NCBI RefSeq assembly: GCF_038397715.1
Contig: NZ_CP151633.1
Coordinates: forward strand, 2,108,001 to 2,172,000
Length of the DNA: 64,000 nt
Reading direction: 5' to 3'
Source of the DNA: Microbacterium sp. LWO14-1.2
GTDB lineage: Bacteria > Actinomycetota > Actinomycetes > Actinomycetales > Microbacteriaceae
Below, piece after piece: positions 16,588 to 41,281 of the stretch; the stretch's first letter is position 1, and each line of letters begins with the position of its first letter. Made by a program: the position numbers and the translations under genes. The notes beneath the pieces were generated by a model. The model was not told the DNA's origin and did not search any database. It was given only the letters and a program-made list of their open reading frames with translations.

Positions 16588-16628
16588 GATGGTTCCACTT
16601 TCGCTGATTTCTCTGGAGGAGGGGCGTC

Positions 16629-18122: not shown

Positions 18123-18156
18123 GACTCGACCTTCATTCGACGGCGGTGGATACAGC

Positions 18157-18168
18157 TGGTCTATACCA
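18157..18168. promoter_or_regulatory. GntR/HutC-type operator
   Basis: TGGTCTATACCA contains GTCTATAC, an exact match to the HutC-subfamily core GTMTAKAC. It lies 35 bp from the permease start and 34 bp from the GntR start, so it can control both divergent genes. Confidence 0.65.
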
Positions 18169-18201
18169 AGGCACGGTAGAGCGAGCACGAGTAGCGTGTC
18201 A

Positions 18202-18951
18202 ATGGTGGGCATGCGCGAGACGGAAGAATTCACACGGACGAAATCTGGCGAGCCCGCCTACGTGCGCATCGCCGGCGAGCTGCGCACCCGCATCGACGAC
18301 GGTGAGCTCACCCCCGGCACGCCCCTGCCGGCGGAACGAGACCTGAGCGTCGAGCTCGGCGTGAGCCGCATGACCCTCCGCCGTGCGCTCGGGGTGCTCG
18401 AGAACGAGGGGCGAGTGCACCGCGACGCGACCCGCGGCACCTTCGTGTCGGAACCCCGCGTGCGCCTGCGGCTCGGCTCGTTCTCGCAGGAGATCGCCCG
18501 CGCGGGCGGCAACCCGGGAGCCGAGCTCCTCTGGGCCGAGGAGCGACCGGCCGACGAGACCGTCGCGGCGGGGCTCGGCATCCCTGCCGGCTCACTCGTC
18601 TACGCGCTTCGGCGCCTGCGGCGCTCGAACGACGAGCCCCTCGCCGTGGAGACGACCTACTACCGCGCCGACCTCGTGCCCGGCCTGCTCGACGGCGACC
18701 TCGCAGGGTCGCTGTGGGACGAGCTGCGCGGGCGGTTCGGCCTCGCCATCGCCCGCACCTCGGCGGAGCTCGAGGTGGTCGTGCTGGATGCCGACGATGC
18801 ACGCCGCCTGGGCACCCGCCGCGCCGCGGGCGGACTGCAGCTGACGCGACGGACGTTCCTCGCCGACGGCGACTGCCTGGAGTTCGCGGTCGACGTCTAC
18901 CGCGCCGACCGGGTCTCGCTCATCATCGACCGGGCGGTCGACGCGGAGTGA
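18202..18951 (+). CDS. GntR family regulator, HutC subfamily (UTRA domain)
   Basis: 249 residues from the ATG at 18202 (ATG at 18211 also possible). The N-terminal winged helix runs A-Y-V-R-I-A-G-E-L-R ... L-G-V-S-R-M-T-L-R-R-A-L; the C-terminal half is a UTRA ligand domain (L-R-R-S-N-D-E-P-L-A-V-E-T-T-Y, a hallmark). It should bind the operator between itself and the permease and be released by an intermediate of the pathway. The HAD gene starts within its stop codon (GTGA), so the two are co-transcribed. Confidence 0.9.
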   Translation: MVGMRETEEFTRTKSGEPAYVRIAGELRTRIDDGELTPGTPLPAERDLSVELGVSRMTLRRALGVLENEGRVHRDATRGTFVSEPRVRLRLGSFSQEIARAGGNPGAELLWAEERPADETVAAGLGIPAGSLVYALRRLRRSNDEPLAVETTYYRADLVPGLLDGDLAGSLWDELRGRFGLAIARTSAELEVVVLDADDARRLGTRRAAGGLQLTRRTFLADGDCLEFAVDVYRADRVSLIIDRAVDAE

Positions 18952-19630: not shown

Positions 19631-19644
19631 AGTATACGTATTCC
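19631..19644 (+). promoter_or_regulatory. Upstream LacI-type operator, importer promoter
   Basis: AGTATACGTATTCC matches 10 of 14 positions of the palindrome TGCATACGTATGCA deduced from the sites in this locus. It is 55 bp (centre to centre) from the second site at 19686. Confidence 0.55.
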
Positions 19645-19685
19645 AACTGTCGAGAAAGCCCGAATATAGGCTTCCCTAAGTCGAC

Positions 19686-19699
19686 TGCATACGTATACC
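19686..19699 (+). promoter_or_regulatory. Promoter-proximal LacI-type operator, importer promoter
   Basis: TGCATACGTATACC matches TGCATACGTATGCA at 12 of 14 positions. It overlaps TACCAT (19696-19701), which ends 7 nt before the binding-protein ATG and is the probable -10 of a leaderless transcript. Confidence 0.65.
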
Positions 19700-19708
19700 A
19701 TCAGCGAC

Positions 19709-21016
19709 ATGGGACACACACAGCACCGAGCACTGCCGGTACTCGCACTCGTCGCCGTGGGCATCGTCGCCCTCGCCGGCTGTGGCGCGGGTTCCCGCAC
19801 CGACAATGAGAACTCGACGAAGGTGACGTGCGACTACACGGCACCCGAAGGCAAGACGACGGTCAACGTCCTCGCCTACAACTCCTCCGCGATCGACCCG
19901 TTCACCGACACGATGGTGTCGAGCTGCTCGACCGACGACGTGACGCTGAAGCACGACCCGATCGACTTCGGCGGCCAGGTGACCAAGACCACCGCGACCC
20001 TCGCGGGCGACACGGGCACCTACGACATCATCGAGACGTACGGCTTCGTCATCCCCGGATTCGGCGAGGAGGAGAAGCTCGTCCCCCTCAACGATCTGTG
20101 GGACAAGTACGCCGACGACTACGGCCTCGGCGACATCAGCCAGTCGATGGTCGAGGGCATGTCGTACGACGGCGACATCTACGCGGTGCCGATGCAGGCG
20201 CAGATGTTCGTCATGGCGTACCGCACCGACATCTTCGACGACCTCGGCCTCGAGGTCCCGACCACGTTCGACGAGATGATCGACGCGGCCGAGGCGATCA
20301 AGGGCGCCGGGCTCATGGACTACCCGATCGCCCTGCCGTGGCTCGCCACGGCCGACGTCACCACCGGCTTCCAGGGTGCGATGAACTCGCTCGGTGCCGA
20401 CTTCGTCACCGCAGACGGCGAGGTCACGCTCGACACCCCCGAGGCCAAGCAGGCCGTCGAGGCGATGCTCGCGCTCAAGCCGTACATGGACCCGCAGGTC
20501 ACCACGTTCGACCAGCCCAAGGTGCAGCAGCAGATGTTCAACGGCACCGCGGCGATGTCGATCATGTTCTCGGGTCGCATGTTCGACCTGACGCTCGACT
20601 CCAACTCCAAGTTCGCCGACTCGTTCGGGTTCGCCGGGGCGCCGAAGGTCACCTCCGACGCGGAGTACTCGTACAACCGCCTCTCGATCGACGGCTGGTC
20701 GATCCCGTTCAACACCAAGCTCGACCACGACATGCTGTTCCAGATGATGGCCTCCGCCGTCAGCGAAGACGCGTCGAAGGCCTCCGTCCCCGCGGCCTAC
20801 CCTGCCCGTGAGGGAATGGTGACGGAGAAGAACTCCCCGTACGGTGCGGCGGCCAACGACTCGATCGCCAGCGCCATGCCCCCGATCGTCTCGCCGATCG
20901 CGGCCGACATCACCAACGAGATCCGGCCGATCCTGGTCTCGATCCTGAACGGCCAGATCGCGGTCGACGAAGGACTCGCCCAGATGCAGGCCGCCGGCGA
21001 GAAGATCGCCGGCTGA
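19709..21016 (+). CDS. ABC importer solute-binding lipoprotein (family 1, sugar type)
   Basis: 435 residues with a lipoprotein signal (V-A-L-A-G-C) and the extracellular solute-binding family 1 pattern: G-T-Y-D-I-I-E-T-Y-G, Y-D-G-D-I-Y-A-V-P-M-Q-A, and P-T-T-F-D-E-M-I-D-A-A. It captures a carbohydrate-like ligand outside the membrane and hands it to the two permeases that follow. Two CATACGTATG-type operators precede it, tying it to the LacI gene at 26598. An unusually stable hairpin separates it from the permeases, probably to keep binding-protein mRNA in excess. Ligand unknown. Confidence 0.9.
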   Translation: MGHTQHRALPVLALVAVGIVALAGCGAGSRTDNENSTKVTCDYTAPEGKTTVNVLAYNSSAIDPFTDTMVSSCSTDDVTLKHDPIDFGGQVTKTTATLAGDTGTYDIIETYGFVIPGFGEEEKLVPLNDLWDKYADDYGLGDISQSMVEGMSYDGDIYAVPMQAQMFVMAYRTDIFDDLGLEVPTTFDEMIDAAEAIKGAGLMDYPIALPWLATADVTTGFQGAMNSLGADFVTADGEVTLDTPEAKQAVEAMLALKPYMDPQVTTFDQPKVQQQMFNGTAAMSIMFSGRMFDLTLDSNSKFADSFGFAGAPKVTSDAEYSYNRLSIDGWSIPFNTKLDHDMLFQMMASAVSEDASKASVPAAYPAREGMVTEKNSPYGAAANDSIASAMPPIVSPIAADITNEIRPILVSILNGQIAVDEGLAQMQAAGEKIAG

Positions 21017-21034
21017 CCGACGCACCGACGTCAT

Positions 21035-21068
21035 GACTGTGGCCTGAGCGCGAGTTCAGGCCACAGTC
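21035..21068 (+). terminator. Stable intercistronic hairpin between binding protein and permease
   Basis: A perfect 13-bp inverted repeat, GACTGTGGCCTGA (21035-21047) and TCAGGCCACAGTC (21056-21068), with an 8-nt loop. It lies 18 nt after the binding-protein stop and ends 19 nt before the permease start, with the permease GGGAGG just after. Partial termination or 3'-end protection would give more binding protein than permease. Confidence 0.75.
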
Positions 21069-21087
21069 CGTCCAAGGGAGGACGCTT

Positions 21088-21960
21088 ATGAAGGCACGCG
21101 AGTTCTGGCTGCTCTTCTTCCCGAGTCTGCTGGTGATGGGGGCGCTCCTCGTGCTCCCGCTGGTGCGCACCGTGCAGTGGAGCTTCGAACAGGTCCGCTA
21201 CGGCTCACCGGGCACCTTCATCGGGCTCGAGAACTTCACCGACGCCCTGACCGATCCGCGCTTCCACAAGGCGGTCGTGTTCACGGTGGTCGTGACGATC
21301 ATCACCACCGCCATCCTGCTGGTCTTCGGCTACATCATCGCCACCGGCATCAACCGCATCACCACCTCGCGCCCCCTGGTGCTCGGCATCATGCTCGTCT
21401 CGTACGTGCTGCCGAACCTCGTGGGCGCCGTCGCGTTCTCGTGGCTCTTCGACGACAACTTCGGCGGAGTCGTCAACCGGCTCATCGGCTTCTTCGGCGG
21501 CACCCAGGTGCTGTGGTTCACCGACCAGGTGCCCAACGCGATCCTGGTCATCGCGAACACGGTCTGGCACATGCTGCCGTTCGCGATGCTCATCATCCTC
21601 GCCGGGCTGCAGGGCGTGCCGAACGAGCTGAAGGAGGCCGCGAAGATCGACGGGGCCAACGCGTTCCAGACGCACATCAGCGTGATCATCCCGACGATCC
21701 GCGGCGTGCTCGGGTTCGTGACCCTGATCACGATCATGGACGTGCTGCGCATGTTCGACAACCTGATCCCGCTGTCGCCGCAGGCGCAGAACATCGGCAA
21801 CGAGTCGATCATGCTCTACGTCTACTCGGTGGCGTTCGCCGACGGCGCCGAGAACCTCGGCCTCGGCAGCGCGATCAACGTGCTCACCATCCTCCTGATC
21901 CTCATCATGCTGATCCCGTTCATCCGGGGCATCTTCAAGGAAGCGAAGGCCGAACGATGA
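21088..21960 (+). CDS. ABC sugar importer permease, MalF-like
   Basis: 290 residues, six predicted transmembrane helices. The cytoplasmic EAA loop is present as E-A-A-K-I-D-G-A-N; this is the docking site for the ABC ATPase. GGGAGG precedes the ATG by 7 nt. The stop overlaps the start of the second permease (ATGA). No ATPase gene is in the locus, so a shared ATPase must serve it. Confidence 0.92.
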   Translation: MKAREFWLLFFPSLLVMGALLVLPLVRTVQWSFEQVRYGSPGTFIGLENFTDALTDPRFHKAVVFTVVVTIITTAILLVFGYIIATGINRITTSRPLVLGIMLVSYVLPNLVGAVAFSWLFDDNFGGVVNRLIGFFGGTQVLWFTDQVPNAILVIANTVWHMLPFAMLIILAGLQGVPNELKEAAKIDGANAFQTHISVIIPTIRGVLGFVTLITIMDVLRMFDNLIPLSPQAQNIGNESIMLYVYSVAFADGAENLGLGSAINVLTILLILIMLIPFIRGIFKEAKAER

Positions 21961-22853
21961 GTCTCACCTCCGCAGAGCTCTCGACGAGAGCCATCGTCAC
22001 CCGCGGCGCGCCGAAGCGGCGCCGCCGCGGCGGCCCCCACCGCCCGCCCGTCATCACGGGGCTGCTGCTCGGCATCCTCTGCGTGGTCGTGCTGAGCCCG
22101 TTCATCTGGATGACGCTGTCGGTGACCAAGCCCACCGACGTCGCGTTCTCGAACCCGCCGGTGCTCTGGGACTACCAGCCCACGCTGCAGGCGTTCGTCG
22201 ACCTGTGGGAGACGACGTACTTCGCGGACTACCTCGTCAACACGCTCGTCGTCGCGGTGGTCTCGACCGTGATCGCGCTCGTGATCGGCATCCCCGCGGC
22301 GTACGCGCTGTCGCGCTTCCCGAGCTACGTGTCGGCGCTGCTGCTCGTGCTCGCGCTGATCTTCCGGGCGCTGCCGCGCTTCTCGGTCGTGCTGCCGATG
22401 TACGACATCAGCCGCGCGCTCGGCATCTACGACACGACGTTCGCGCTCGCGATCGCCCTCGTCGCGATCAACCAGCCGTTCACGATCTGGCTGCTGCGCA
22501 ACTTCTTCGCCGAGATCCCGCGGGAGCTCGACGAAGCGGCGATGATCGACGGCTGCACCCGGATCGGGATGCTGCGGCGCGTCATGATCCCGTTGATGGG
22601 GCCGGGCATCCTCACCGCCGGCATCTTCGTGTTCCTGTTCGCGTTCCAGGAGTACCTCACGGCGCTCGTGCTCACCGACACGTCGTCGAAGACGGTTCCG
22701 GTGTTCATCGCGACGCAGCTCGGACAGACCCTGCCGATGCTGCAACAGGCGGGAGCCGCATCGATGCTGCTGACCATCCCGGTGTTCGTGATCGCGTTCA
22801 TCGCGCAGAAGTACCTCGTCGCCGGTCTCAGCGACGGCGCCGTGAAGGGCTGA
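21957..22853 (+). CDS. ABC sugar importer permease, MalG-like
   Basis: 298 residues, six transmembrane helices, with a basic N-terminus (K-R-R-R-R-G-G). The EAA loop reads L-D-E-A-A-M-I-D-G-C-T. It forms the membrane heterodimer with the preceding permease, to which it is translationally coupled by a 4-nt overlap. The hydrolase gene starts 2 nt after its stop, so all four plus-strand genes form one operon. Confidence 0.92.
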   Translation: MSLTSAELSTRAIVTRGAPKRRRRGGPHRPPVITGLLLGILCVVVLSPFIWMTLSVTKPTDVAFSNPPVLWDYQPTLQAFVDLWETTYFADYLVNTLVVAVVSTVIALVIGIPAAYALSRFPSYVSALLLVLALIFRALPRFSVVLPMYDISRALGIYDTTFALAIALVAINQPFTIWLLRNFFAEIPRELDEAAMIDGCTRIGMLRRVMIPLMGPGILTAGIFVFLFAFQEYLTALVLTDTSSKTVPVFIATQLGQTLPMLQQAGAASMLLTIPVFVIAFIAQKYLVAGLSDGAVKG

Positions 22854-22854
22854 C

Positions 22855-23580
22855 GTGTCGGCATCCGTCCCGCCGCTGACGCTGCTCGCCGGCATGAACT
22901 GCACGGCCGACCTGTGGGCGGACGCCGGCTTCGACACGGAGGGTGGAGGGGTGATCCGGCCGACGCTGGATCGCCCCTCGCTCCGCGCGCAGGTCGAGGC
23001 GCTGCTGGCGGATCTGCCCGCGCAGTCGGTGATCGTCGGGCACTCGCTCGGCGGGATCGTGGGCATGGCGCTCGCCCTCGCCGCTCCGCACCGCGTGGCG
23101 GGGCTCTGCCTCGTGTCGACGAACGCGAAGGCGCCGACCGGGGCACAGCGCGCGGGCTGGACGGAGTGGATCCGCCGCCTCGACGACGGCGACGACGCCC
23201 GATCGCTGCAGCAGAGCATCCTCGAACCGCTCCTCGGCGAACGCCTGGCCGCGGAGCGCCCCGACCTCGTGGAACGCGCCCTGAGCATGGGCGACGACAC
23301 CGGCGACGACCTGCTGCGCACGCAGCTCGAGCTGCAGCTGACCCGCGTCGACCTGCTGTCGCGGCTGTCATCGCTGCGAATGCCGACGCTCGTCGTGTCC
23401 GGACTCGACGACGTCATCTGCCCGCCTCGGTTCCACACCGAGATCGTGGCGGAGATCGACGGTGCGCGGTTGGTGTCACTCGACGCCGGTCACCTGCTGC
23501 CGCTCGAACGGCCGCGCGAGTTCGGCGATCTCGTGCGCTCATGGTGCGCGCAGCGGGTTCGGCCGGCAGCCGTGGCGTGA
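22855..23580 (+). CDS. Alpha/beta-hydrolase
   Basis: 241 residues from GTG at 22855. The nucleophile elbow is G-H-S-L-G-G (near residue 62-67), the acid is in V-S-G-L-D-D, and the catalytic His is in D-A-G-H-L-L-P-L-E, the layout of MhpC/BioH-like carboxylesterases. It is the last gene of the importer operon, so it probably acts early on the imported compound, for example by opening an ester or lactone; this is inference. Confidence 0.85.
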   Translation: MSASVPPLTLLAGMNCTADLWADAGFDTEGGGVIRPTLDRPSLRAQVEALLADLPAQSVIVGHSLGGIVGMALALAAPHRVAGLCLVSTNAKAPTGAQRAGWTEWIRRLDDGDDARSLQQSILEPLLGERLAAERPDLVERALSMGDDTGDDLLRTQLELQLTRVDLLSRLSSLRMPTLVVSGLDDVICPPRFHTEIVAEIDGARLVSLDAGHLLPLERPREFGDLVRSWCAQRVRPAAVA

Positions 23581-23598
23581 GCGGGCGACGCACGCACT

Positions 23599-23665
23599 GC
23601 AGGAGATCTCACGCAACGAAGGACGGATGCCGCGATCGCGTCCTTCGTCACGCGAGATCTCCTGC
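23599..23665. terminator. Long inverted repeat, bidirectional terminator
   Basis: Arms of 27 bp (23599-23625 and 23639-23665; left arm starts GCAGGAGATCTCACGCAACG) pair with only three mismatches and enclose 13 bp. It lies between the stop codons of the convergent hydrolase and aldolase genes. Confidence 0.8.
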
Positions 23666-23671
23666 GCAAGC

Positions 23672-24415
23672 TCAGCGCGTCGGAGCGGCCAGATCGCGCA
23701 GGTGCGTCATGAGCGACGACGCGAGGTTGTAGACGACGAGGTCGGCGCCGTGCGCGAACGCCGCAGTCGCGGCATCCTTCGTCCCCACGATGTCCATGCG
23801 CAGGGCAGCGGAGCGCGCGAGCGCCCCGTTCACGACCGCGACGGCCTCAGACACCGGCAGGTCGTCCGCTCCGGATGCCGCGGCGAGGTCGGCCGGGCCG
23901 ATCATGATGCCGTCAAGGCGCGGCGTCGACGCGATGGCCTCGACGTTCGCGACGCCGCGCGGCGATTCGATCATGCCGAGCACCAGGGTGTTCTCGAGCC
24001 ACCAGTCCCGGTGCGCGGCCGCCGCGACCTCGCCGAAGCGCCCGGCACGGCTGTAGGTCGCGAAGCCGCGCGAGCCGACGGGCGGATAGAGGGAGGCGTC
24101 GACGAGGTCGGCTGCGTCCTCGGCCGTGTCGAGGTGCGGGGCGAGGATGCCCTGCGCGCCCTGATCGAGCACCCGCAGCACGAGGCCGCGGTCCTTCTCG
24201 CCGACCCGCACGACGACGGGCACGTCGTGCACCGCCGCCAGCGCGATGTGGTGACGCAGCGCGACGATGTCGGCCGGTCCGTGTTCGCAGTCGATCAGCA
24301 CGAAGTCGAAGCCGGCGACGGCCAGCATCTCGACGGTCTCCTCGGCCGGCATGCGCAGCAGAGCGCCGATGAGCTTCTCACCGGCGCTCGCGCGCTGCCG
24401 CAGCGAGGCGGTCAC
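23672..24415 (-). CDS. HpcH/HpaI family aldolase
   Basis: 247 residues from a GTG overlapping the SDR stop (GTGA). Family motifs: F-V-L-I-D-C-E-H-G with the catalytic His, a central V-R-V-G-E-K-D-R, G-M-I-E-S-P-R-G (metal-binding Glu) and G-P-A-D-L-A (metal-binding Asp). These are class II metal-dependent aldolases that cleave 4-hydroxy-2-oxo acids to pyruvate and an aldehyde. In this locus it probably splits the end product of the dehydrogenase steps. Third and last gene of the HisD-SDR-aldolase operon. Confidence 0.9.
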   Translation of the reverse strand: MTASLRQRASAGEKLIGALLRMPAEETVEMLAVAGFDFVLIDCEHGPADIVALRHHIALAAVHDVPVVVRVGEKDRGLVLRVLDQGAQGILAPHLDTAEDAADLVDASLYPPVGSRGFATYSRAGRFGEVAAAAHRDWWLENTLVLGMIESPRGVANVEAIASTPRLDGIMIGPADLAAASGADDLPVSEAVAVVNGALARSAALRMDIVGTKDAATAAFAHGADLVVYNLASSLMTHLRDLAAPTR

Positions 24416-25170
24416 GCGACCATCCCCGCCGAGAGATCGACGTCGGCGCCGCACATGCCGGGCATCGCGAGCATCGCGACGACGGCTGCGCCGACCTCCT
24501 CCTCTGTCACCATGCGGCCCAGCGCGGCCCGCGACACGAATGCCTGCTCGGCGTCGTCGACGCTCGTGCCGGACCGCTCGGCCTCGAGGCGGAAGTTGCG
24601 CGCCATGCGCGGCCCCTGCACGGGACCAGGCGACAGCGAGTTCACCCGCACACCGGCCGGCCCGACCTCGAACGCGAGGGTCGAGGTGAGCCCGATGACG
24701 GCCATCTTCGAGGCGCAGTACGGAGTGCGGTGGGCGAGCGGGCGCTTGCCCGACACGGATGCCACGTTGATGACGTCGCCGTCACCGCGCTCGACCATGC
24801 CCGGGAGCAGCGCCTTGCACAGCAGGAACGTGCCGCGCACGTTGACCGCGAACACCTCGTCCCAGTCGTCGACCTCGATGTCGGTGAGCGCCGCCACCGG
24901 GCCGGGGATGCCGGCGTTGTTGACGAGGATCGACACCTCGGTGCCCTCCAGCGCGCTGCGCAGGGCGTCGACGGAGGCCGGGTCCGCGACGTCGCACGCG
25001 ACAGCGCGGGACCTCGGACCGAGTTCGGCGACCACGGCGTCCAGCTTGGCGGTGTCGCGGCCGACCACGACGACCGAGGCTCCGACGGTGTGCAGGGCGC
25101 GGGCGATCGCCGCCCCGAGTCCGCTGCCGCCGCCGGTGACCACGGCCGTGCGGCCGGTGAGATCGGTCAT
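24412..25170 (-). CDS. SDR-family dehydrogenase
   Basis: 252 residues. Cofactor motif T-G-G-G-S-G-L-G near residue 12; C-D-V-A-D; N-N-A-G near 86; catalytic Tyr and Lys in Y-C-A-S-K near 150-154; S-P-G-P-V in the substrate loop. This is a classical SDR acting on a hydroxyl or keto group of a small metabolite, NAD or NADP dependent. It overlaps the HisD-like gene upstream and the aldolase downstream by 4 nt each, so the three proteins are made together. Confidence 0.9.
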   Translation of the reverse strand: MTDLTGRTAVVTGGGSGLGAAIARALHTVGASVVVVGRDTAKLDAVVAELGPRSRAVACDVADPASVDALRSALEGTEVSILVNNAGIPGPVAALTDIEVDDWDEVFAVNVRGTFLLCKALLPGMVERGDGDVINVASVSGKRPLAHRTPYCASKMAVIGLTSTLAFEVGPAGVRVNSLSPGPVQGPRMARNFRLEAERSGTSVDDAEQAFVSRAALGRMVTEEEVGAAVVAMLAMPGMCGADVDLSAGMVA

Positions 25171-26498
25171 CGGGCGTCCGCGCCGATCGCGGCGTGGCTC
25201 TCGTCGATCCAGTCGAACTGCGTGCCCGCGTGACGCCACGCGCGCGCGTCGCCCGAACGGGCGTGACCCTCGAACAGCTCGACGCGGGCTGCGCGTCCGC
25301 ACACGGCGCCGAGCTCGGCGGACGACTCGGTGTTCTGCACCTCCTGATACGTGACGGTGCGCAGGTACTTGCCGACCCAGAGGCCGCCGGTGTAGCGGGC
25401 GGCGCCAAGCGTCGGCAGCACGTGGTTCGTGCCGATCACCTTGTCGCCGTACGACACGCAGGTGTTCTCACCCAGGAACAGGGCGCCGTAGTCGTGCATC
25501 CTCGTCAGCGCCTCGCGCGGGTTCTCGGTGAAGATCTGCACGTGCTCGAACGCGAAGTCGTCGGCGATGCGGTACGCCTCGTCGAGGTCGTCGGCGACGA
25601 TAACCTGGCCCCAGTCGCGCCAGGCGGGTCCGGCGTAGTCGCGCGTCGGCATGCCGGGAAGGATCCGGTCGATCCAGTCGATGACCTCCTCGGCCAGCTG
25701 CTGCGAGGTGGTGACCAGCACGGCGGGGGAGTCGGGGCCGTGCTCGGCCTGCGACAGCAGGTCGACCGCGGTGAAGAAGGGGTCGGCGTGCTCGTCGGCG
25801 ACGATGAGGATCTCGGTCGGGCCGGCGAACAGGTCGATGCCGACCTCGCCGAACAGCTGGCGCTTGGCCTCGGCGACGTAGGCGTTGCCGGGGCCGGCGA
25901 TCATGTTGACCGGCTCGATCGTGTCGGTGCCGACGGCCATGGCTGCCACGGCCTGCACTCCGCCGAGGATGTAGATCTCGTCGGCGCCGGCGAGCTTCAT
26001 GGCGGCGACCGTGGCGGCGGGGATCTCGCCGCGGATCGGCGGGGTGCACGCGACGACGCGGGGTACCCCGGCGACCTTGGCCGTGATGATGGTCATGTGC
26101 GCGGAGGCCGTGAGGGGGTACTTGCCTCCGGGGATGTACGCGCCGGCCGCCTGCACCGGCACGTGCTTCTGGCCGAGGAAGACCCCGGGCAGCGTCTCGA
26201 CCTCGATGTCGACGAGGGAGTCGCGCTGGGCCTGGGCGAAGCGACGGACCTGCGCCTGCACGAACTCGATGTCGGCGATGACCTGGTCGTCGAGCGTGCC
26301 CATGATCTGCGCGATCTCGTCGTCGGAGAGCCGGTACGACTCCGGGCTCCAGTTGTCGAACTGCTCGGCGTAGCGTCGGACGGCCGCGTCGCCGTTCTCG
26401 CGGATGTCGCCGATGATCGCCCTCACCCGCTCCGCGACGTCCTGCTGAGCGGTGTCCGCGAACGTCTTCGTCGGCGCGGTCTTCAGATGCAGGGGCAT
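25167..26498 (-). CDS. HisD-family NAD-dependent dehydrogenase, catabolic paralogue 1
   Basis: 443 residues. It keeps the HisD metal and catalytic pattern: Q-A-E-H-G (near 249-253), F-E-H-V-Q-I with the Glu-His pair (near 316), G-D-K-V-I-G-T-N-H (near 350-357) and a final E-G-H-A-R-S (near 420). True HisD makes histidine from histidinol by two NAD oxidations; related enzymes such as HpsN oxidise sulfopropanediol. No his gene is nearby and the operon is catabolic, so another terminal alcohol is likely. ATG at 26498 is preferred over 26513 because AAAGGAAGG lies just before it. The promoter carries two operator-like sites. Confidence 0.88.
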   Translation of the reverse strand: MPLHLKTAPTKTFADTAQQDVAERVRAIIGDIRENGDAAVRRYAEQFDNWSPESYRLSDDEIAQIMGTLDDQVIADIEFVQAQVRRFAQAQRDSLVDIEVETLPGVFLGQKHVPVQAAGAYIPGGKYPLTASAHMTIITAKVAGVPRVVACTPPIRGEIPAATVAAMKLAGADEIYILGGVQAVAAMAVGTDTIEPVNMIAGPGNAYVAEAKRQLFGEVGIDLFAGPTEILIVADEHADPFFTAVDLLSQAEHGPDSPAVLVTTSQQLAEEVIDWIDRILPGMPTRDYAGPAWRDWGQVIVADDLDEAYRIADDFAFEHVQIFTENPREALTRMHDYGALFLGENTCVSYGDKVIGTNHVLPTLGAARYTGGLWVGKYLRTVTYQEVQNTESSAELGAVCGRAARVELFEGHARSGDARAWRHAGTQFDWIDESHAAIGADAR

Positions 26499-26514
26499 GG
26501 CCCTTCCTTTCATT

Positions 26515-26526
26515 GCATACGTATGT
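26515..26526. promoter_or_regulatory. LacI-type operator at the hisD-like transcription start
   Basis: GCATACGTATGT holds the perfect palindrome CATACGTATG (26516-26525), the best site of the set. It lies at the expected transcription start, 17 bp upstream of the HisD-like ATG. Confidence 0.7.
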
Positions 26527-26530
26527 GCTG

Positions 26531-26560
26531 ATTATGACCGCGTATGCATTCCGGCGTCAA
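26531..26560 (-). promoter_or_regulatory. Promoter of the hisD-like / SDR / aldolase operon with second operator
   Basis: On the minus strand TTGACG (26555-26560) and CATAAT (26531-26536) are spaced by 18 bp, a good -35/-10 pair. A weaker operator copy at 26535-26548 (10 of 14 matches, half-site CGTATGCA) lies in the spacer and also close to the divergent LacI promoter. Confidence 0.65.
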
Positions 26561-26597
26561 GGGCGGTAGAATCCGGTGACCGAGGGGGAGGCCTGAC

Positions 26598-27599
26598 ATG
26601 GTCGTCACGAGCCGGGATGTAGCCCGTCTGGCAGGGGTGTCGCAGCCGACGGTGTCGCGCGCGCTCCGTGACGACGCCCGAGTGTCCGAGGCGACCAAGC
26701 TCCGGGTGCGCGAGGCGGCCCAGCTGCTCGGCTATGTGCCGAGCGAGGCCGGCCGGGCTCTCTCGTCCGGCCGCACCAGGCGCATCGGCCTGCTGCTCAC
26801 CGACCTCGACAACCAGTTCTACTCGCACATCATCGCGCCCGTGCATCGCGAGCTCGAGGCCCTCGGCTACCAGCTGATGCTGCACACCGAGTCGGCCGAC
26901 AACGACACGGTCGTCGAGCGTCTGCTCGCGAACGGCCTCGACGGCGTCATCCTCGCCACCACGACCGTCGACTCCGTGGCTCCGCTGCGCCTGCGCGACC
27001 GGGGTCTGCCCTTCGTGTACTTCAACCGCACCGGGTCTTTCGTCGATGCGGACGCGGCGGTCGTGAACTCCGTGCCCGGCTATCGCGAGGCGGTCCGAGC
27101 GGCCGTCGCCCTCGGGCACCGGCGCATCGGCGCGGTGCTCGGGCCGAGCAACACGAGCACGGGGCAGGGGCGCGAGGCGTCGCTCCGCGATGCCCTGACC
27201 GCCGAGGGGCTGCAGCTCGACGAGCGCGACGTGCGTCGCACCCCCTACGGTGCGACCGAGGGAGAGGCCGCCGCGGCCGAGCTGCTCGCCGGGTCGGACC
27301 GCCCCACGGTGCTCTTCTGCGGCAACGACGTCGTCGCATACGGCGCGCTCAACGCCGCGCACCGTGCCGGCTTGCGCGTGCCGGAGGACCTCTCGGTCAT
27401 CGGCTTCGACGACCTCCCCGAGGCGGCATGGCCCATCATCGACCTCGCCACGGTCGGCTATGACATCGTCGGCATGGCGCGCGCGGCGGCCGACCTCGTC
27501 GTGCGGCGCATCGAGGATCCGAGCGCCGAGATCCGGACGTCCGGGTTCGCGTCGACCTTCATCGCGCGTCGCACGCTGGCGCCCGCGCCGACGCGCTGA
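26598..27599 (+). CDS. LacI family transcriptional regulator
   Basis: 333 residues. The DNA-binding head is T-S-R-D-V-A-R-L-A-G-V-S-Q-P-T-V-S-R-A-L, followed by the hinge helix region S-E-A-G-R-A-L-S-S-G and a periplasmic-binding-protein-like sensor domain (V-I-G-F-D-D-L-P near the end). GGGGGAGG precedes the ATG; TAGAAT at 26567-26572 is the likely -10. Operator-like CATACGTATG sites stand before the importer, the HisD-like operon and the NTF2-like gene, so this protein is the best candidate for their repressor and for its own control. Confidence 0.92.
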   Translation: MVVTSRDVARLAGVSQPTVSRALRDDARVSEATKLRVREAAQLLGYVPSEAGRALSSGRTRRIGLLLTDLDNQFYSHIIAPVHRELEALGYQLMLHTESADNDTVVERLLANGLDGVILATTTVDSVAPLRLRDRGLPFVYFNRTGSFVDADAAVVNSVPGYREAVRAAVALGHRRIGAVLGPSNTSTGQGREASLRDALTAEGLQLDERDVRRTPYGATEGEAAAAELLAGSDRPTVLFCGNDVVAYGALNAAHRAGLRVPEDLSVIGFDDLPEAAWPIIDLATVGYDIVGMARAAADLVVRRIEDPSAEIRTSGFASTFIARRTLAPAPTR

Positions 27600-27723
27600 C
27601 TCCGCGGGTCTCTCCGCTCCTGCGGCAGCTCCTCCCTCGTGCGCTGGAGTGTCGGCCGCGGCATCCGTTCCGGCCCCGATCGACGGTTCTCGGGGAATGA
27701 CCACGTGTGCGCTGGAACCTCTC

Positions 27724-27752
27724 TTGCGCTGTGTTGTGCATACGCATACACT
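27724..27752 (+). promoter_or_regulatory. Promoter with embedded operator, NTF2-like gene
   Basis: TTGCGC (27724-27729) and TACACT (27747-27752) are spaced exactly 17 bp. The operator copy TGCATACGCATACA (27737-27750, 12 of 14 matches) fills the spacer and the first bases of the -10. The leader to the GTG start is about 60 nt. Confidence 0.7.
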
Positions 27753-27816
27753 GACCACAACGAGGCGTGCGATCACCGATGAACCGCAGCGTCGTATCTC
27801 GAAGGAGTGGAAAAGC

Positions 27817-28797
27817 GTGTCTCTCGACCCGGTCGCCTACCTGCCGTACAAAGACCCCGACGACTTCATCCGCGAGGTCACCGACCTCATCTGGGTCGAT
27901 CGGTCGATCAGCTACATCCGTGAGAACTACGAGCCCGACTCGATCGTGCACGGCGCCCTCGGCACCTCCACGACTCGTCAGGAGGTCATCGAGGGGTCGC
28001 TCATGCGCATCTCGGCGACGCCCGACCGCACAGGTCAGGCCGAGGACGTCATCTGGGAGGCCCGCGGCGACGACGCGTTCCTCAGCTCCCACCTCGTGCT
28101 GTCGGGAGACCTGCACTCGCCGTACGTGAGCCGCACGATCGCGAACTGCCTCTACCGCCGCGGCCGCATGGTCGAGGAGTGGGTCGTGCGCGACACGCTC
28201 GCCGGGGCGCTGCGCCGCGGCGACGACCTCGACGAGCTGGCGCGGGCGCAGGCGTTCCGCGGCTTCTCCGGCTCCTGGACCGAGCCCGCCCCCGCCGACC
28301 CCATCGCGAAGGGCGACTCGGGCGTCCGCCCCGACGAGCACCGCGCCGAGGTCGAGACGGTCATCGACATGATCCAGACCGTGTGGAACGACCGTGACCT
28401 GCAGAAGGTCGAGAAGTACTTCGACCGCGACCTCACGCTCAACACGGTCGGCGACCGCACGATCATCCGCCCGGAGGGCTACCGCCGCGCGCTGCTACGC
28501 CTGCTCGAGTCGTTCCCCGGCGGGCAGTTCGAGATCCGCGACATCCAGACCAACTACGACGTGCGCTACGCGGGCCTCCGCGTCGCCGTCGTCTGGAAGT
28601 TCGTGGGCGACTACAACGGCGTGCCGAACTACGGTCCGCTCACCGGCAAGCCGATCGACCTGATCGGCATCTCGCAGTTCACCTTCCACAACGGCGCCAT
28701 CGTCAAGGAGGTGCGCCTGTGGGACGACATCGCACTCCGTGCGCAGATCGCAGGGTCGCGCGGCGACGAGCCGGTGCCCTTCGCCAACATCTACTGA
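27817..28797 (+). CDS. Double NTF2-like (SnoaL-type) protein
   Basis: 326 residues starting at GTG 27817, with GAAGGAG about 10 nt upstream. Two similar NTF2-like alpha+beta cone domains: residues about 10-150 (I-R-E-V-T-D-L-I-W-V-D-R-S-I) and about 180-320 (V-I-D-M-I-Q-T-V-W-N-D-R-D). Both carry the W-x-D-R/R-D helix and later R-x-E-G/E-G patterns of SnoaL-like cyclases and isomerases. Such domains bind or isomerise small hydrophobic or cyclic molecules; a specific reaction cannot be named. It is followed after 31 nt by the bicupin gene, so both share the LacI-controlled promoter. Confidence 0.8.
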   Translation: MSLDPVAYLPYKDPDDFIREVTDLIWVDRSISYIRENYEPDSIVHGALGTSTTRQEVIEGSLMRISATPDRTGQAEDVIWEARGDDAFLSSHLVLSGDLHSPYVSRTIANCLYRRGRMVEEWVVRDTLAGALRRGDDLDELARAQAFRGFSGSWTEPAPADPIAKGDSGVRPDEHRAEVETVIDMIQTVWNDRDLQKVEKYFDRDLTLNTVGDRTIIRPEGYRRALLRLLESFPGGQFEIRDIQTNYDVRYAGLRVAVVWKFVGDYNGVPNYGPLTGKPIDLIGISQFTFHNGAIVKEVRLWDDIALRAQIAGSRGDEPVPFANIY

Positions 28798-28828
28798 TCA
28801 TCGACTGATCGACAAGGGAGAAGAAGAC

Positions 28829-29998
28829 ATGAGCACCGTCATCGAGGGCACGACGGACGTCGTCGTCGACACCGAGGAGATCCAGCGACGGACCATCCGC
28901 CGTTCGGACTGGGTGCCGTGCAACTCGGCGTTCATCGACTGCCGCACCCCGGGGTCCGACCGCAAGGAGAACTACTCCTTCATCGGCGCCGGCGTCTCGC
29001 AGAACGCGAGCCAGTACGTGAACCTCGAGGTGAACCACGGGTTCAACACGGGCGCCGCCGGGATGCCGAACGGCATCTCGAACAACCTGCACCTGCACTT
29101 CACGGCCGAGGTGTTCATCAACCTCGGCGGCGAGTTCCGGCTGCGGTGGGGCGTCGACGGCAAGCAGGGCGAGTACATCAGCCACGACGGCGACATCGTC
29201 ACGATCCCCACCTGGATCTTCCGCGGCTTCACCAACGAGGGACCGGACGACGGCATCCTCTACACGGTGCTCGGCCGAGACGACAACGGCGGCATCATCT
29301 GGGGGCCGTCGGTGCTCCGCGAGGCGGAGTCGTACGGACTGCACCTCACGGCCGACAACAAGCTGATCGACACCGTCGCGGGCGACGTGCTGCCCGACGA
29401 CGTGGCGCTCATCAAGCCGATGAAGCAGCACTACATCGACGAGCTCACCGAGTACTCGGTGGAGGACATGCGCTCGCGCGTCATCCAGCCCGGCGACCGG
29501 AAGTACTCGGCTGCGGCGCTGCTGTGCGCGGCGGTCGACGGCGGCCGCGTCGAGCTCGCCACCGCGATCGGCTACGGCATGAGCGAGAACCGCCGCCAGG
29601 TGCCGAACGTGCACGAGCCCCACTCGTTCAACCTCGCGTGGGTCAAGGCCGAGCCCGGTCAGGGCGTGCTGCGTCACCGTCACGACAAGACGCAGGCGCT
29701 GCTGTTCAAGACCGGACGCTGGGAGGTCACCCTCAACGGCGACCCGTCGACGACGGTCACACTCGGAGCCGGCGGCACGTTCTCGGTGCCCGAGGGCGCC
29801 TGGCGTTCGTACGTCTGCGTCGAGGGCGACGAGACCGGCTCCGGCACGGTGCTCGTCATCAACGGCGGCGACGACCGCGTCTACCTCGAGTGGGCCCCCG
29901 AGGTCGTCGAGGCCGCGGCTGCCGCCGACTGGACGATCGACCCCAACGGCTACCTCGCGCCACTCGGCGTGATGGTCACGGCCACGGAAGACGACTGA
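28829..29998 (+). CDS. Bicupin protein of unknown function
   Basis: 389 residues; GGGAGAAG precedes the ATG at 28829. Two cupin barrels: the first has N-L-H-L-H-F-T-A-E-V-F (near 88-98), the second V-L-R-H-R-H-D-K-T-Q-A-L-L-F (near 277-290). The H-x-H...E/Q pattern in each suggests a metal site, though the first barrel has H-x-H with Glu at a non-standard place. Relatives of this architecture include dioxygenases and sugar-acid isomerases; the reaction is not known. It is the second gene of the operon with the NTF2-like protein. Confidence 0.8.
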   Translation: MSTVIEGTTDVVVDTEEIQRRTIRRSDWVPCNSAFIDCRTPGSDRKENYSFIGAGVSQNASQYVNLEVNHGFNTGAAGMPNGISNNLHLHFTAEVFINLGGEFRLRWGVDGKQGEYISHDGDIVTIPTWIFRGFTNEGPDDGILYTVLGRDDNGGIIWGPSVLREAESYGLHLTADNKLIDTVAGDVLPDDVALIKPMKQHYIDELTEYSVEDMRSRVIQPGDRKYSAAALLCAAVDGGRVELATAIGYGMSENRRQVPNVHEPHSFNLAWVKAEPGQGVLRHRHDKTQALLFKTGRWEVTLNGDPSTTVTLGAGGTFSVPEGAWRSYVCVEGDETGSGTVLVINGGDDRVYLEWAPEVVEAAAAADWTIDPNGYLAPLGVMVTATEDD

Positions 29999-30012
29999 GC
30001 CGACACCTCTCA

Positions 30013-30052
30013 CGACGGGGCGCGGGGGGCGATGGCTCCTCGCGCCCCGTCG
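30013..30052. terminator. Bidirectional hairpin between bicupin and LysR genes
   Basis: Perfect 12-bp arms CGACGGGGCGCG (30013-30024) and CGCGCCCCGTCG (30041-30052) with a 16-nt loop lie between convergent stop codons. Confidence 0.8.
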
Positions 30053-30061
30053 CGTCTGCGG

Positions 30062-30988
30062 TCACTGCAGCGGCGTGCGCCCCGCGTGCTCGGGGAGGCG
30101 TTCGCGCAGCATCCGCTCGGCGAGCTCCGCGAGCTTGCGCGTCGCCGGCGACAGCAGCACCCCCTCGCGCTGCACGAGCGCGATCGTGTCGTGCATGGGC
30201 TCCGCGAACGGGAAGGTGCGGATGCCGGGAGGGAAGCCCTCGGACTCGGCGATCGACCGCGACACGATCGTGTCGGCCGTGCCGGCGGCGACGAGGCTCA
30301 GGGCGGTCTCGACGTGCTCGACCTCGACCGACGGCTCGATCGTGAGGCCCTGCAGGCGGGCGCGCTCCAGCAGCTGTCTGCGTGTCGGGTCGTCCCATCC
30401 GGCGAAGGCGTCGTACAGCACGAGCTTCGCCTCGGCGACCTCGGAGATCGTCACCGGTCCGCCGTCGAGAGGCCTGGTCGAGGACACGTAGAGCACCTCG
30501 TCGCGGAAGAGCGGCTTGACCTCGAGGCCGTCCTCGTCGATCGGCAGCACGAGCAGGCCGGCCTCGAGCTCCCCGCGCGCGATCGACCGCGCGACGTGCG
30601 CGGAGTTGATGCCCACCAGCCGCAGACGCACGTTCGGATGCCGGTGGTGGAACGTCTCGGCGAGATCGGCGAGGGCGTAGTACGCCGCGTTGCGCAGCAC
30701 GCCGAAGGTGCAGATGCCGCGGTCGAGCGAAGCGAGAGAGTGGATCGTGTCGATGCCGTTCTGCACGGCGCTGACGGCCTGCGCGGCGTGCGGGCGCAGC
30801 TCCTGCGCGGCGGCCGTCGGCACCAGACGGCGGCTGCCGCGCACGAAGAGCGTCGCGTCGAGCTCGCGCTCGAGGCGGGCGACGAGCTCCGACACGGAGG
30901 CCTGCGTCATGCCCAGACTCGCCGCCGCTGCGGTGAACGAGCCGTGTTCGAGAGCCGCGAGGAAGGCGGTGAGCTGCGTGATGGTCAC
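30062..30988 (-). CDS. LysR family transcriptional regulator
   Basis: 308 residues from the GTG at 30988 (an ATG at 31012 would add 8). The N-terminal helix-turn-helix is the LysR type: L-T-A-F-L-A-A-L-E-H-G-S-F-T-A-A-A-A-S and Q-A-S-V-S-E-L-V-A-R-L-E. The rest is the two-lobed substrate-binding fold. It is divergent from the second HisD-like gene at 31066, its probable target; LysR proteins usually activate such a neighbour when an intermediate of the pathway is present. Confidence 0.9.
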   Translation of the reverse strand: MTITQLTAFLAALEHGSFTAAAASLGMTQASVSELVARLERELDATLFVRGSRRLVPTAAAQELRPHAAQAVSAVQNGIDTIHSLASLDRGICTFGVLRNAAYYALADLAETFHHRHPNVRLRLVGINSAHVARSIARGELEAGLLVLPIDEDGLEVKPLFRDEVLYVSSTRPLDGGPVTISEVAEAKLVLYDAFAGWDDPTRRQLLERARLQGLTIEPSVEVEHVETALSLVAAGTADTIVSRSIAESEGFPPGIRTFPFAEPMHDTIALVQREGVLLSPATRKLAELAERMLRERLPEHAGRTPLQ

Positions 30989-31030
30989 AGGCCAATGGTA
31001 AACCCGATGCATCAGTACGGATCATCAGGC

Positions 31031-31059
31031 TTGTCGGATGGATGCCGCCGATCTAGCCT
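31031..31059 (+). promoter_or_regulatory. Promoter of the second hisD-like gene, leaderless
   Basis: TTGTCG (31031-31036) and TAGCCT (31054-31059) have the ideal 17-bp spacing, and the ATG begins 7 bases after the -10. No Shine-Dalgarno precedes the ATG. The region is shared with the divergent LysR gene. Confidence 0.65.
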
Positions 31060-31065
31060 TCCTGC

Positions 31066-32382
31066 ATGCGTTACTCTCCTGCAGTCCTCGCGCGTCATGA
31101 CGGCGCCTTCCACCACCTCAAGACCCCGCTGATCGACGCCCCGGCCGCGCAGCGCGACCCCGCCGTGATCGAGACCGTGACGACGATGCTCGCCGACATC
31201 CGGGACCGCGGCATGGACGCCGTGCTCGACTACGCGAGGAAGCTCGACAACTACCAGGGCGCTGCCATCGAGCTCACGCCCGAGCAGATCGCGAGCAGCG
31301 GCGAGCGACTCGATCCCGCCCTGCGTGAGGCGATCGAGCTCGGCGCCGCGCGCACCCAGGCCTTCGCCCGCGAGCAGCGCTCGCACCTCGCCGACTTCGA
31401 GACCGAGCTGGTGCCCGGCCTCGTGACCGGTGCCAAGTACATCCCCGTCTCCCGCGTCGGCGCCTATCTGCCGGCCGGACGCTTCCCGCTCACGGCGAGC
31501 GCGTTCATGACCGTGGGCGTCGCGAAGGCCGCGGGCGTGCCGACCGTGATCGCCTGCACGCCCCCGCAGCCCGACGGCGGAGCCAACGACGCCGTCGTGT
31601 ACGCCGCGCACCTCTCCGGCGTCGACCGCGTCTTCGTGATCGGCGGAGTGCAGGCGCTCGCCGCCATGGCCTACGGCCTGCTGGGCGAGCTGCCCGTCGA
31701 CATGCTGGTCGGCGCGGGCAACGCCTTCGTCGCCGAGGCGAAGCGTCAGCTCTTCGGCACGGTCGCGATCGATCTGCTCGCCGGCCCCAGCGAGGTCGCG
31801 GTCATCTCCGACGAGACGGCCGATCCCGAGCTCGTCGCCGCCGATCTGCTCGGTCAGGCCGAGCACGGCCCCAACTCGCCGGCTGCGCTCATCACCACGT
31901 CGGAGGAGCACGGTCGCGCCGTGATCGCCGAGATCGATCGACAGCTCGAGACCCTCGCGACCGCGGAGATCGCCGGCGCGGCCTGGCGCGACTACGGCGT
32001 GGTGACCGTCGCGAAGGACCGCGAGACCGCCGCGGCCCTCATGGACGACCTCGCCCCCGAGCACCTCGAGATCCTCACGGCCGACGATGACTGGTACCAC
32101 GAGAACCTCCGCAACTACGGGTCGATCTTCCTCGGTCCGTGGAGCACGGTCGCCTACTCCGACAAGGGCATGGCGGGCACGAACCACGTGCTCCCGACGG
32201 CCGGCGGCGCCAAGCACAGCGCCGGGCTCTCGGTGTCGCGCTTCCTCAAGCCGCTCACGTACCAGCGCATCAGCCGTGAGGCGACGCCCGCGCTCGCAGA
32301 CGCCGTGCAGGTGATCTCCGACTCGGAGGGCATGGCCGCGCACAGCGCGACCGCCACGCTGCGCACGGCTCGCCTCGGCTGA
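31066..32382 (+). CDS. HisD-family NAD-dependent dehydrogenase, catabolic paralogue 2
   Basis: 438 residues. HisD residues are kept: Q-A-E-H-G (near 264-268), P-E-H-L-E-I (near 330-335), S-D-K-G-M-A-G-T-N-H (near 365-374) and a final A-A-H-S-A (near 424). It is clearly diverged from the paralogue at 25167 and has its own LysR regulator. With no histidine genes nearby, a catabolic four-electron or two-electron alcohol oxidation is more likely than histidine synthesis, but a housekeeping HisD role cannot be fully excluded without seeing the rest of the genome. A strong hairpin and a repeat array follow. Confidence 0.88.
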   Translation: MRYSPAVLARHDGAFHHLKTPLIDAPAAQRDPAVIETVTTMLADIRDRGMDAVLDYARKLDNYQGAAIELTPEQIASSGERLDPALREAIELGAARTQAFAREQRSHLADFETELVPGLVTGAKYIPVSRVGAYLPAGRFPLTASAFMTVGVAKAAGVPTVIACTPPQPDGGANDAVVYAAHLSGVDRVFVIGGVQALAAMAYGLLGELPVDMLVGAGNAFVAEAKRQLFGTVAIDLLAGPSEVAVISDETADPELVAADLLGQAEHGPNSPAALITTSEEHGRAVIAEIDRQLETLATAEIAGAAWRDYGVVTVAKDRETAAALMDDLAPEHLEILTADDDWYHENLRNYGSIFLGPWSTVAYSDKGMAGTNHVLPTAGGAKHSAGLSVSRFLKPLTYQRISREATPALADAVQVISDSEGMAAHSATATLRTARLG

Positions 32383-32415: not shown

Positions 32416-32453
32416 GAGACCCCGGGTTGTGGACGACCACAGCCCGGGGTCTC
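32416..32453 (+). terminator. Strong hairpin after hisD-like 2
   Basis: Arms of 17 bp (GAGACCCCGGGTTGTGG at 32416-32432; CCACAGCCCGGGGTCTC at 32437-32453) pair with one mismatch around an ACGA loop, 33 nt after the stop codon. Confidence 0.8.
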
Positions 32454-32537
32454 TGCGACGAACCGGCGTCTTTGCGATGAACCGGGGTCTCTGAGATGAA
32501 CCGGGGTCTCTGCGATGAACCGGGGTCTCGGCGATCA
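32446..32537 (+). repeat. 19-bp tandem repeat array
   Basis: Units start at 32446, 32465, 32484, 32503 and 32522 (last one partial). The commonest unit is GGGGTCTCTGCGATGAACC; copies differ at one to three positions. Unit 1 is the right arm of the preceding hairpin, so the array probably grew from it by slippage. It fills the gap before the DoxX-like gene. Confidence 0.9.
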
Positions 32538-32628
32538 GGGCGGGAGAACCGGAGGACCCGACGAGGTGGGGGAGGGATGGGAGTCGAGCCCTCCGGGGCG
32601 GAGGGGGATGAGGTGTGTCGGCGTCGGA

Positions 32629-38868: not shown

Positions 38869-38921
38869 TCCCACCCGACCACACCCGACATCACCGCTCG
38901 ATCACCGCTCAAGGAAGAGTC

Positions 38922-40211: not shown

Positions 40212-40215
40212 GCCG

Positions 40216-41280: not shown

Positions 41281-41281
41281 C

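Follow-up and report, generated by a model that had tools for sequence, protein, structure and literature searches.

A probable catabolic locus in Microbacterium with a sugar-type importer and HisD-fold dehydrogenases of a third type

In a 64,000-nucleotide stretch of the chromosome of Microbacterium sp. LWO14-1.2 (positions 2108001-2172000 of a single contig of 3.78 Mb; hereafter the window), we analyzed a locus that encodes two HisD-fold dehydrogenases, HisD1 and HisD2, together with an ATP-binding cassette (ABC) importer, an alpha/beta-hydrolase, an HpcH/HpaI-type aldolase, a short-chain dehydrogenase (SDR), an NTF2/SnoaL-like protein, a bicupin, and regulators of the LacI and LysR families (Table 1). 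We consider it fairly probable that this is a LacI-controlled catabolic locus, in which HisD-fold enzymes of a third type, neither histidinol dehydrogenase (HisD) nor HpsN, oxidise a primary alcohol to an acid before an aldolase cut. The elements computed for this reading are the gene content, the placement of both proteins outside HisD, their kept residues, synteny across families, and a palindrome shared by three intergenic regions.

Two HisD-fold dehydrogenases outside HisD and HpsN

Both proteins match the Pfam family PF00815 (468 and 438 bits for HisD1 and HisD2) and exceed the NCBIfam hisD cut-off of 244 bits, with 453 and 436 bits. The motifs QAEHG, EH, DK, and TNHVLP are present in both alike, and our motif check and alignment agree with an earlier note on this DNA, according to which both keep the Q-A-E-H-G, E-H, and T-N-H residues. 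The whole genome holds three PF00815 genes, these two and a third at 3,333,726 that lies, as read by eye, near an nrdR-like open reading frame (ORF); a hisI-type PF01502 gene is found elsewhere, at 3,743,399. As the note had also stated, no histidine genes were seen in a Pfam scan of the locus proteins.

We compared these proteins in a tree of 84 rows, whose counts are not independent because many rows are near-copies from Microbacterium. The tree omits 12 of the 18 sister loci described below, 19 of 29 further HisD loci (L078-L106), and two duplicates of the window's own genes, and the HisD of S. medicae (a 330-residue ORF) was kept out. The third PF00815 copy clusters (100/100) with ten HisDs that come from other genera in its family. 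HisD1 falls into a 45-row clade (100/100) that also includes Alpha- and Gammaproteobacteria, Bacilli, and Bacteroidota, and HisD2 into a 12-row actinobacterial clade (100/100), both apart from HisD; HisD2 and the two HpsN rows are weakly joined (91/88), on long branches. The proposal that the pair stands outside histidine synthesis is therefore upheld, as neither protein groups with HisD and the genome has another copy that does.

For the site roles of HpsN residues we relied on excerpts of PMC11382572, in which Lys353 touches the sulfonate and the diagnostic HpsN motif is G-R-Y-A/S-H, its final residue being His126. Equivalents of the catalytic or zinc-site residues Glu318, His319, Asp352, and His359 are present in all 84 rows, and that of His411 in 82, the remaining two being gaps. 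Position 353 is Tyr in 13/13 HisD rows but Lys in HisD1 and HisD2, as it is in all 71 non-HisD rows (45/45 of the HisD1 clade, 12/12 of the HisD2 clade, 12/12 deep rows, and 2/2 HpsN). His126 occurs exclusively in the two HpsN rows; the position is Leu in HisD1 and HisD2, and Leu or Met throughout their clades (45/45 and 12/12), where 44 of 45 HisD1-clade rows carry a His at position 131. The motif thus reads GKYPL in HisD1 and GRFPL in HisD2, not GRYAH or GRYSH. Both proteins are 46-49% identical to the HpsN pair; for the HisDs of E. coli and of the genome itself the figure is 34-37%.

Because Lys353 is present and the diagnostic His126 is absent, HisD1 and HisD2 are, by the published motif, outside both HisD and HpsN. 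HpsN had been offered in the earlier note as an example of a HisD-family enzyme outside histidine synthesis; by this motif the two proteins are not HpsN either. The conserved Lys353 would suggest a substrate bearing an anionic or strongly polar group. Excerpts of PMC11131964 report weak histidinol activity for an HpsN and DHPS (sulfopropanediol) activity for HisD, and specificity is therefore not fixed by sequence alone.

A conserved unit in Actinomycetota

We found 26 genome-contig loci with HisD1, of which 18 belong to Microbacterium or Plantibacter (the sister loci). All 18 contain nine core genes, coding for both permeases, the hydrolase, HpcH, SDR, HisD1, LacI, the NTF2-like protein, and the cupin; the solute-binding protein (SBP) and LysR are each present in 17, and HisD2 in 16. 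The gene absences in L006 and L015 fall at contig ends. A carbon-nitrogen (CN) hydrolase gene accompanies 13 of the 18, and the locus of the window is without one. This genome has such a gene at about 589,000-591,500 (G000:C1; L113:8040-10476), adjoining a PF02133 permease and 59% identical to the copy in sister locus L007, and in genome G257 a pair of this kind lies inside the locus itself.

Among the other eight HisD1 loci, seven have an SDR within ~3 kb of HisD1, and the fuller gene set is found in Jatrophihabitans (L020) only. The Jatrophihabitans hydrolase (L020:6447-7703) has ~180 extra N-terminal residues with no Pfam match, which by eye resemble a decayed HpcH domain. A genome of another family (G569) carries together the genes for NTF2, LacI, HisD1, SDR, HpcH, the hydrolase, both permeases, SBP, and HisD2; here HisD2 directly precedes the importer, and a 12-of-16 match to the palindrome covers its start codon.

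HisD1-type matches (E <= 1e-120) are found in 16 of 396 actinobacterial genomes and bicupin matches (E <= 1e-25) in three, one of them the window's own. All three are among the 16, with the bicupin at most ~4 kb from HisD1. HisD2-type matches (E <= 1e-110) occur in six of 296 genomes of the class. The importer and the enzymes are a conserved unit, and the comparison of gene neighbourhoods that the earlier note had called for, carried out here, finds the locus conserved in the sister loci and in G569, with a palindrome shared by its three units.

A shared palindrome and presumed LacI control

This palindrome is common to the intergenic regions upstream of SBP, between HisD1 and LacI, and upstream of NTF2. 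In the window, the core GYATACGYAT matches five times (at four places) where 0.05 matches are expected, and none of 100 shuffles reaches five. The whole genome has ten matches, five of them in the locus; those outside can be extended to no more than 11 of 16 letters. With up to one mismatch, TGCATACGYATRC has three sites in the genome, all in the locus, and the reversed control has none; with two mismatches it has eight matches in the window against 1.43 expected, and one shuffle of 100 reaches eight. With three mismatches, TTGCATACGTATGCAA has four genome sites, two of them in the locus and two, at 13 of 16 letters, elsewhere. Sites are retained across the sister loci (Table 1), the two stretches that have none before SBP ending ahead of its start.

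In AT-richer loci, 12-of-16 matches often arise by chance (a rough block shuffle gives 0 to 1.6 per locus), and we therefore limited cross-phylum hits to at least 14 letters. Eight of the 38 distant loci scanned hold a site matching TTGCATACGTATGCAA at 14-16 of 16 letters: Ruegeria (two sites), Roseomonas marmotae (16/16), Pantoea (two), S. medicae (four), Salmonella (one, centred on TTCGAA), Geobacillus (two), Kineococcus (one, a variant), and genome G008 (one). In 18 of the 38 there is no site of at least 12 of 16 letters, and these include K84, Hymenobacter, R. etli, Thalassospira, R. bangladeshense, the CpHpsN locus, Vibrio, R. wittichii, and five loci of Streptomyces or Actinospica. We infer that LacI would bind the palindrome and that the three units may be co-regulated.

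Related gene sets on plasmids of distant bacteria

HisD1 matches 381 plasmid records, true HisD-like hits counted in, and we opened 16 of these loci. The bicupin matches 52 plasmid records, of which ten, picked for variety, were examined, two of them first found through HisD. All ten have a hydrolase nearby, together with an aldolase of the HpcH type in seven and of the RraA type in three. HisD is present in six (K. michiganensis, Ruegeria, Pantoea, which has two, Roseomonas OT10, S. medicae, and Roseibium), or in four of the eight found independently of HisD. In these six, HisD, SDR, hydrolase, aldolase, and cupin occur together, with the provisos that the Roseomonas OT10 set spans the record start, that the S. 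medicae HisD was found by tblastn only, and that the Ruegeria cupin match covers about half of the query. The closest repeat of the Microbacterium set is that of Pantoea (L071), with two HisDs, two NTF2/SnoaL proteins, LacI, an MFS transporter, SDR, hydrolase, HpcH, cupin, and an amidase.

Three of the remaining loci (Ensifer, Thioclava, and Vibrio) have an annotated OtnK and aldolase beside the bicupin, HpcH, and hydrolase trio, and R. wittichii has neither HisD nor OtnK. Of the OtnK loci, L070 contains a DUF1537-type kinase and a class-II aldolase, and L072 and L073 have them by annotation. The likeness to OtnK/OtnC (3-oxo-tetronate) loci is thus in the trio, whereas the locus proteins of the window include neither of these two families, and HisD and SDR stand in their place.

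A proposed pathway

We infer the substrate, the order of reactions, and the products from protein families and context. The ABC importer would take up a sugar-sized compound that is polyhydroxylated or resembles a sugar acid; by E-value the best solved relative of SBP is a sorbitol-labelled binding protein, a weak match. HisD1, with the SDR, and HisD2 would be NAD- and zinc-dependent and would use two NAD+ to convert a primary alcohol in two steps, through the aldehyde, to the carboxylate, on a non-sulfonated substrate. That substrate would also carry a zinc-chelating hydroxyl or amine in vicinal position and some group, probably an anion, for Lys353 to bind. The SDR may oxidise or epimerise a secondary hydroxyl, in the way that HpsO works on DHPS next to HpsN, and the alpha/beta-hydrolase may open an ester or a lactone. 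Isomerisation or hydration would be the task of the cupin, perhaps together with the NTF2-like protein, and a retro-aldol cut by HpcH would release pyruvate, or a related compound, and a short hydroxy-acid or hydroxy-aldehyde.

HpcH scores above the cut-off of its family (PF03328, 105.8 bits against 25) and has the motifs DCEHG at 42, R70, E149, and GPADL at 173, whose roles we take to be those of HpaI. None of the named functions HpaI, GarL, and RhmA is assigned by NCBIfam cut-off, the best score being 133.5 against 368.8 bits. The NTF2-like protein had been described as double: its family is right, but Pfam detects the second half only (residues 181-311), and the view of a protein that is probably two-lobed depends on an AlphaFold2 model of low confidence (pLDDT 52.7). 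This model matches SnoaL-like cyclases and hydroxylases, which are weak guides given its quality. For the bicupin, no sequence relatives below E 0.001 were found in the PDB. The model we used has a mean pLDDT of 66.5, with four others at 38.6-43.7; it matches quercetinase, YlbA, KduI, oxalate decarboxylase, salicylate/gentisate-type enzymes, and seed storage proteins at nearly tied Z, and therefore yields no function.

The proposed order hydrolase, cupin, HpcH has a precedent in lumichrome breakdown, where, according to excerpts of PMC12746152, pyruvate is formed by the successive action of LumW (hydrolase), LumY (cupin hydratase), and LumX (retro-aldolase). The likeness is one of order, and the upstream chemistry differs. 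The same excerpts have Microbacterium maritypicum starting the lumichrome/riboflavin pathway; we rejected that route for the present locus and retain it merely as a precedent for the order.

The pairing with OtnK hints that a four-carbon acid may be made. The amide-cleaving gene that many relatives have, together with the CN-hydrolase and PF02133 permease at 590 kb, hints instead at nitrogen in the natural substrate or in a compound related to it, which is hard to square with a tetronate. The claim of the earlier note that the locus takes up and breaks down an alcohol or sugar-like compound with an aldolase cut thus stands as regards a conserved unit, while substrate and cut are drawn from families and context.

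Alternative explanations

Several observations weigh against the pathway proposed above. The bicupin model is compatible with bicupins of many functions, and a bicupin is present in just two of the 16 opened HisD1-matched plasmid loci (K. michiganensis, L050, and Ruegeria, L052). No cupin match was found in the stretches of Geobacillus (L048), Roseomonas marmotae (L056), Salmonella, Kineococcus, and G008, which have good sites, and the palindrome therefore tracks the LacI-HisD pair more closely than the whole set. The gap between LysR and HisD2 in the window has no such palindrome, HisD2 is absent (as is LysR) within the Plantibacter stretch L016, and HpcH has no match in locus L117. The HisD1 clade also occurs in other settings that speak against a single function for it: FAD-monooxygenase-type, fumarylacetoacetate-hydrolase, and related genes surround it in K84, Emticicia, and Hymenobacter, and a thiamine diphosphate (ThDP)-type enzyme accompanies it in R. 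etli, Thalassospira, and R. bangladeshense.

The first of these settings would favour catabolism of aromatic or plant phenolic compounds, with HisD and SDR acting on a side chain, for example of an arylglycerol, and the hydrolase, cupin, and aldolase on a ring-fission product. VOC genes and, in Hymenobacter, pca genes are found near HisD1-clade and SDR genes as well, and by eye such company is also seen in Streptomyces and Actinospica; among the proteins that the cupin model resembles are quercetinase and gentisate-type dioxygenases. We nevertheless judge this unlikely, as the locus of the window has no oxygenase of such kinds, its importer and regulator are of sugar type, and the loci in question have no cupin, K84 and Hymenobacter also lacking any site of at least 12 of 16 letters. 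A flavonoid or isoflavone pathway, prompted by the neighbours of the HisD1 clade in Hymenobacter and Emticicia, was rejected since those plasmid loci have no match to the window's cupin; in the excerpted main text of the isoflavone-cluster paper PMC11069340 the word dehydrogenase is absent. A nitrogen-bearing compound (amide, ureide, or nucleobase-like), of which the polyol part is one piece only, is likewise improbable. It would account for the CN-hydrolase gene in the sister loci and in Jatrophihabitans, for the amidase in Pantoea and S. medicae, and for the CN-hydrolase/permease pair in G257 and at 590 kb, but the window's locus lacks a CN-hydrolase gene, as do L004, L005, L009, L016, and L029, and the annotations around the cupin of K. 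michiganensis, Ensifer, Thioclava, and Vibrio show none.

Catabolism of DHPS, with HisD1 or HisD2 as an HpsN-type enzyme beside an HpsO-like SDR, is what some database names say, many homologues in JGI being called sulfopropanediol 3-dehydrogenase. The closest solved relatives of both proteins are indeed such enzymes, and HpsN, the R-DHPS 3-dehydrogenase of Cupriavidus pinatubonensis and relatives (PDB 8v35, 8wwe), shares with them the fold, the zinc and catalytic residues, Lys353, an SDR neighbour, and a context of LacI and a transporter; the gene order LacI, hpsN, hpsO, MFS in C. pinatubonensis also resembles LacI, HisD, SDR, MFS in K. michiganensis. We hold this to be very unlikely given the replacement of His126 in 57/57 rows of the two clades, the limited identity to HpsN, the separate clades, and the weak join of HisD2 with HpsN; moreover, a search confined to the proteins of the locus showed neither a second alcohol dehydrogenase of the hpsP kind nor a sulfolyase family. 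We give hardly any credence to the reading that one or both proteins are histidinol dehydrogenases of the ordinary kind, serving as spare copies in histidine synthesis, and rejected it on the third PF00815 gene, the tree, and residue 353. The proteins share with HisD the PF00815 fold and the catalytic Glu-His pair and pass the hisD cut-off, but lie outside the HisD rows, have Lys for Tyr at 353, and are not beside his genes, and the third copy clusters with the HisDs of the same family. Some histidinol side activity is possible because of that reported for an HpsN in excerpts of PMC11131964.

Organization of the locus

By sequence, the listed genes were found at the positions of Table 1 with open reading frames (19.7-32.4 kb of the window), and ORFs and Pfam families agree with the earlier list of an importer, hydrolase, HpcH, SDR, two HisD-like proteins, bicupin, and LacI/LysR. 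HisD1 and SDR, and SDR and HpcH, overlap by four bases on the minus strand, as in one operon, and would form a single unit. The importer genes and the hydrolase, on the plus strand, point toward this unit, and LacI, NTF2, and bicupin are transcribed divergently from HisD1.

Table 1. Features of the locus, in window coordinates
Feature	Position	Strand	Evidence or remark
Palindrome-like site, weaker copy, 5' of importer	19632..19644		GYATACGYAT match; most sister loci have one before SBP
Palindrome site CTGCATACGTATACCA 5' of importer	19685..19700		ahead of SBP in 16/18 sister loci
ABC solute-binding lipoprotein (SBP)	19709..21016	+	PF01547; LAGC lipobox, residue 22
ABC permease	21088..21960	+	PF00528
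ABC permease	21957..22853	+	PF00528
Alpha/beta-hydrolase	22855..23580	+	PF00561; GHSLGG nucleophile motif; enol-lactonase similarity below cut-off
Inverted repeat, 27-nt, between converging hydrolase and HpcH genes	23599..23665		
HpcH/HpaI-type aldolase	23672..24415	-	PF03328; closest solved relatives HpaI/YfaU/GarL-type aldolases
Short-chain dehydrogenase (SDR)	24412..25170	-	PF00106 and motifs
HisD1, HisD-fold dehydrogenase, motif GKYPL	25167..26498	-	PF00815
Palindrome site TTGCATACGTATGTGC between HisD1 and LacI	26513..26528		in 18/18 sister loci
LacI-family regulator	26598..27599	+	PF00356/PF13377
Palindrome site GTGCATACGCATACAC 5' of NTF2-cupin	27736..27751		in 18/18 sister loci
NTF2/SnoaL-like protein, probably two-lobed	27817..28797	+	PF07366, second half only; weak model
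Bicupin	28829..29998	+	PF07883 in two stretches; bicupin fold matches
LysR-family regulator, divergent from HisD2	30062..31012	-	PF00126/PF03466
HisD2, HisD-fold dehydrogenase, motif GRFPL	31066..32382	+	PF00815

A perfect 13-nt inverted repeat in the gap between SBP and the first permease (21035-21068) is possibly a read-through limiter. Downstream of HisD2, at 32444-32538, a 38-nt register is repeated four times at 19-base spacing and overlaps a 35-nt inverted repeat. Genes for an FGGY kinase, an FAD oxidoreductase, an amino-acid-permease-like protein, and GntR lie at 13991-18951; the GntR/permease/FAD-oxidoreductase unit adjoins the locus in three of the 18 sister loci (L004, L009, and L029) and was excluded from the core set. 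By eye, a second sugar-type ABC importer is encoded at 37567-42196, after a PF07350 protein gene and beyond a ROK-like gene.

Implications

The single enzyme families are already known; we found no description of the gene set or of the third HisD type in our searches of open-access papers, within which the statement of the earlier note that no described pathway has this set holds good. It is conceivable, if doubtful, that an undescribed pathway for a natural compound, with LacI and its operator, using the third HisD type as a two-step dehydrogenase from alcohol to acid, has spread across Actinomycetota and Alpha- and Gammaproteobacteria, and ends in pyruvate and a four-carbon sugar acid that is either oxidised (HisD/SDR) or phosphorylated (OtnK/OtnC), depending on the host.

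Enzymes of the third type are widespread, and databases list them under names such as "histidinol dehydrogenase" or "sulfopropanediol 3-dehydrogenase", by which calls of histidine synthesis can be led astray, as can tallies of sulfonate (DHPS) degraders. The pair Lys353/His126 provides a simple test for sorting HisD, HpsN, and the third type, and the palindrome, together with the alternative partner OtnK, narrows the substrate to candidates that can be screened.

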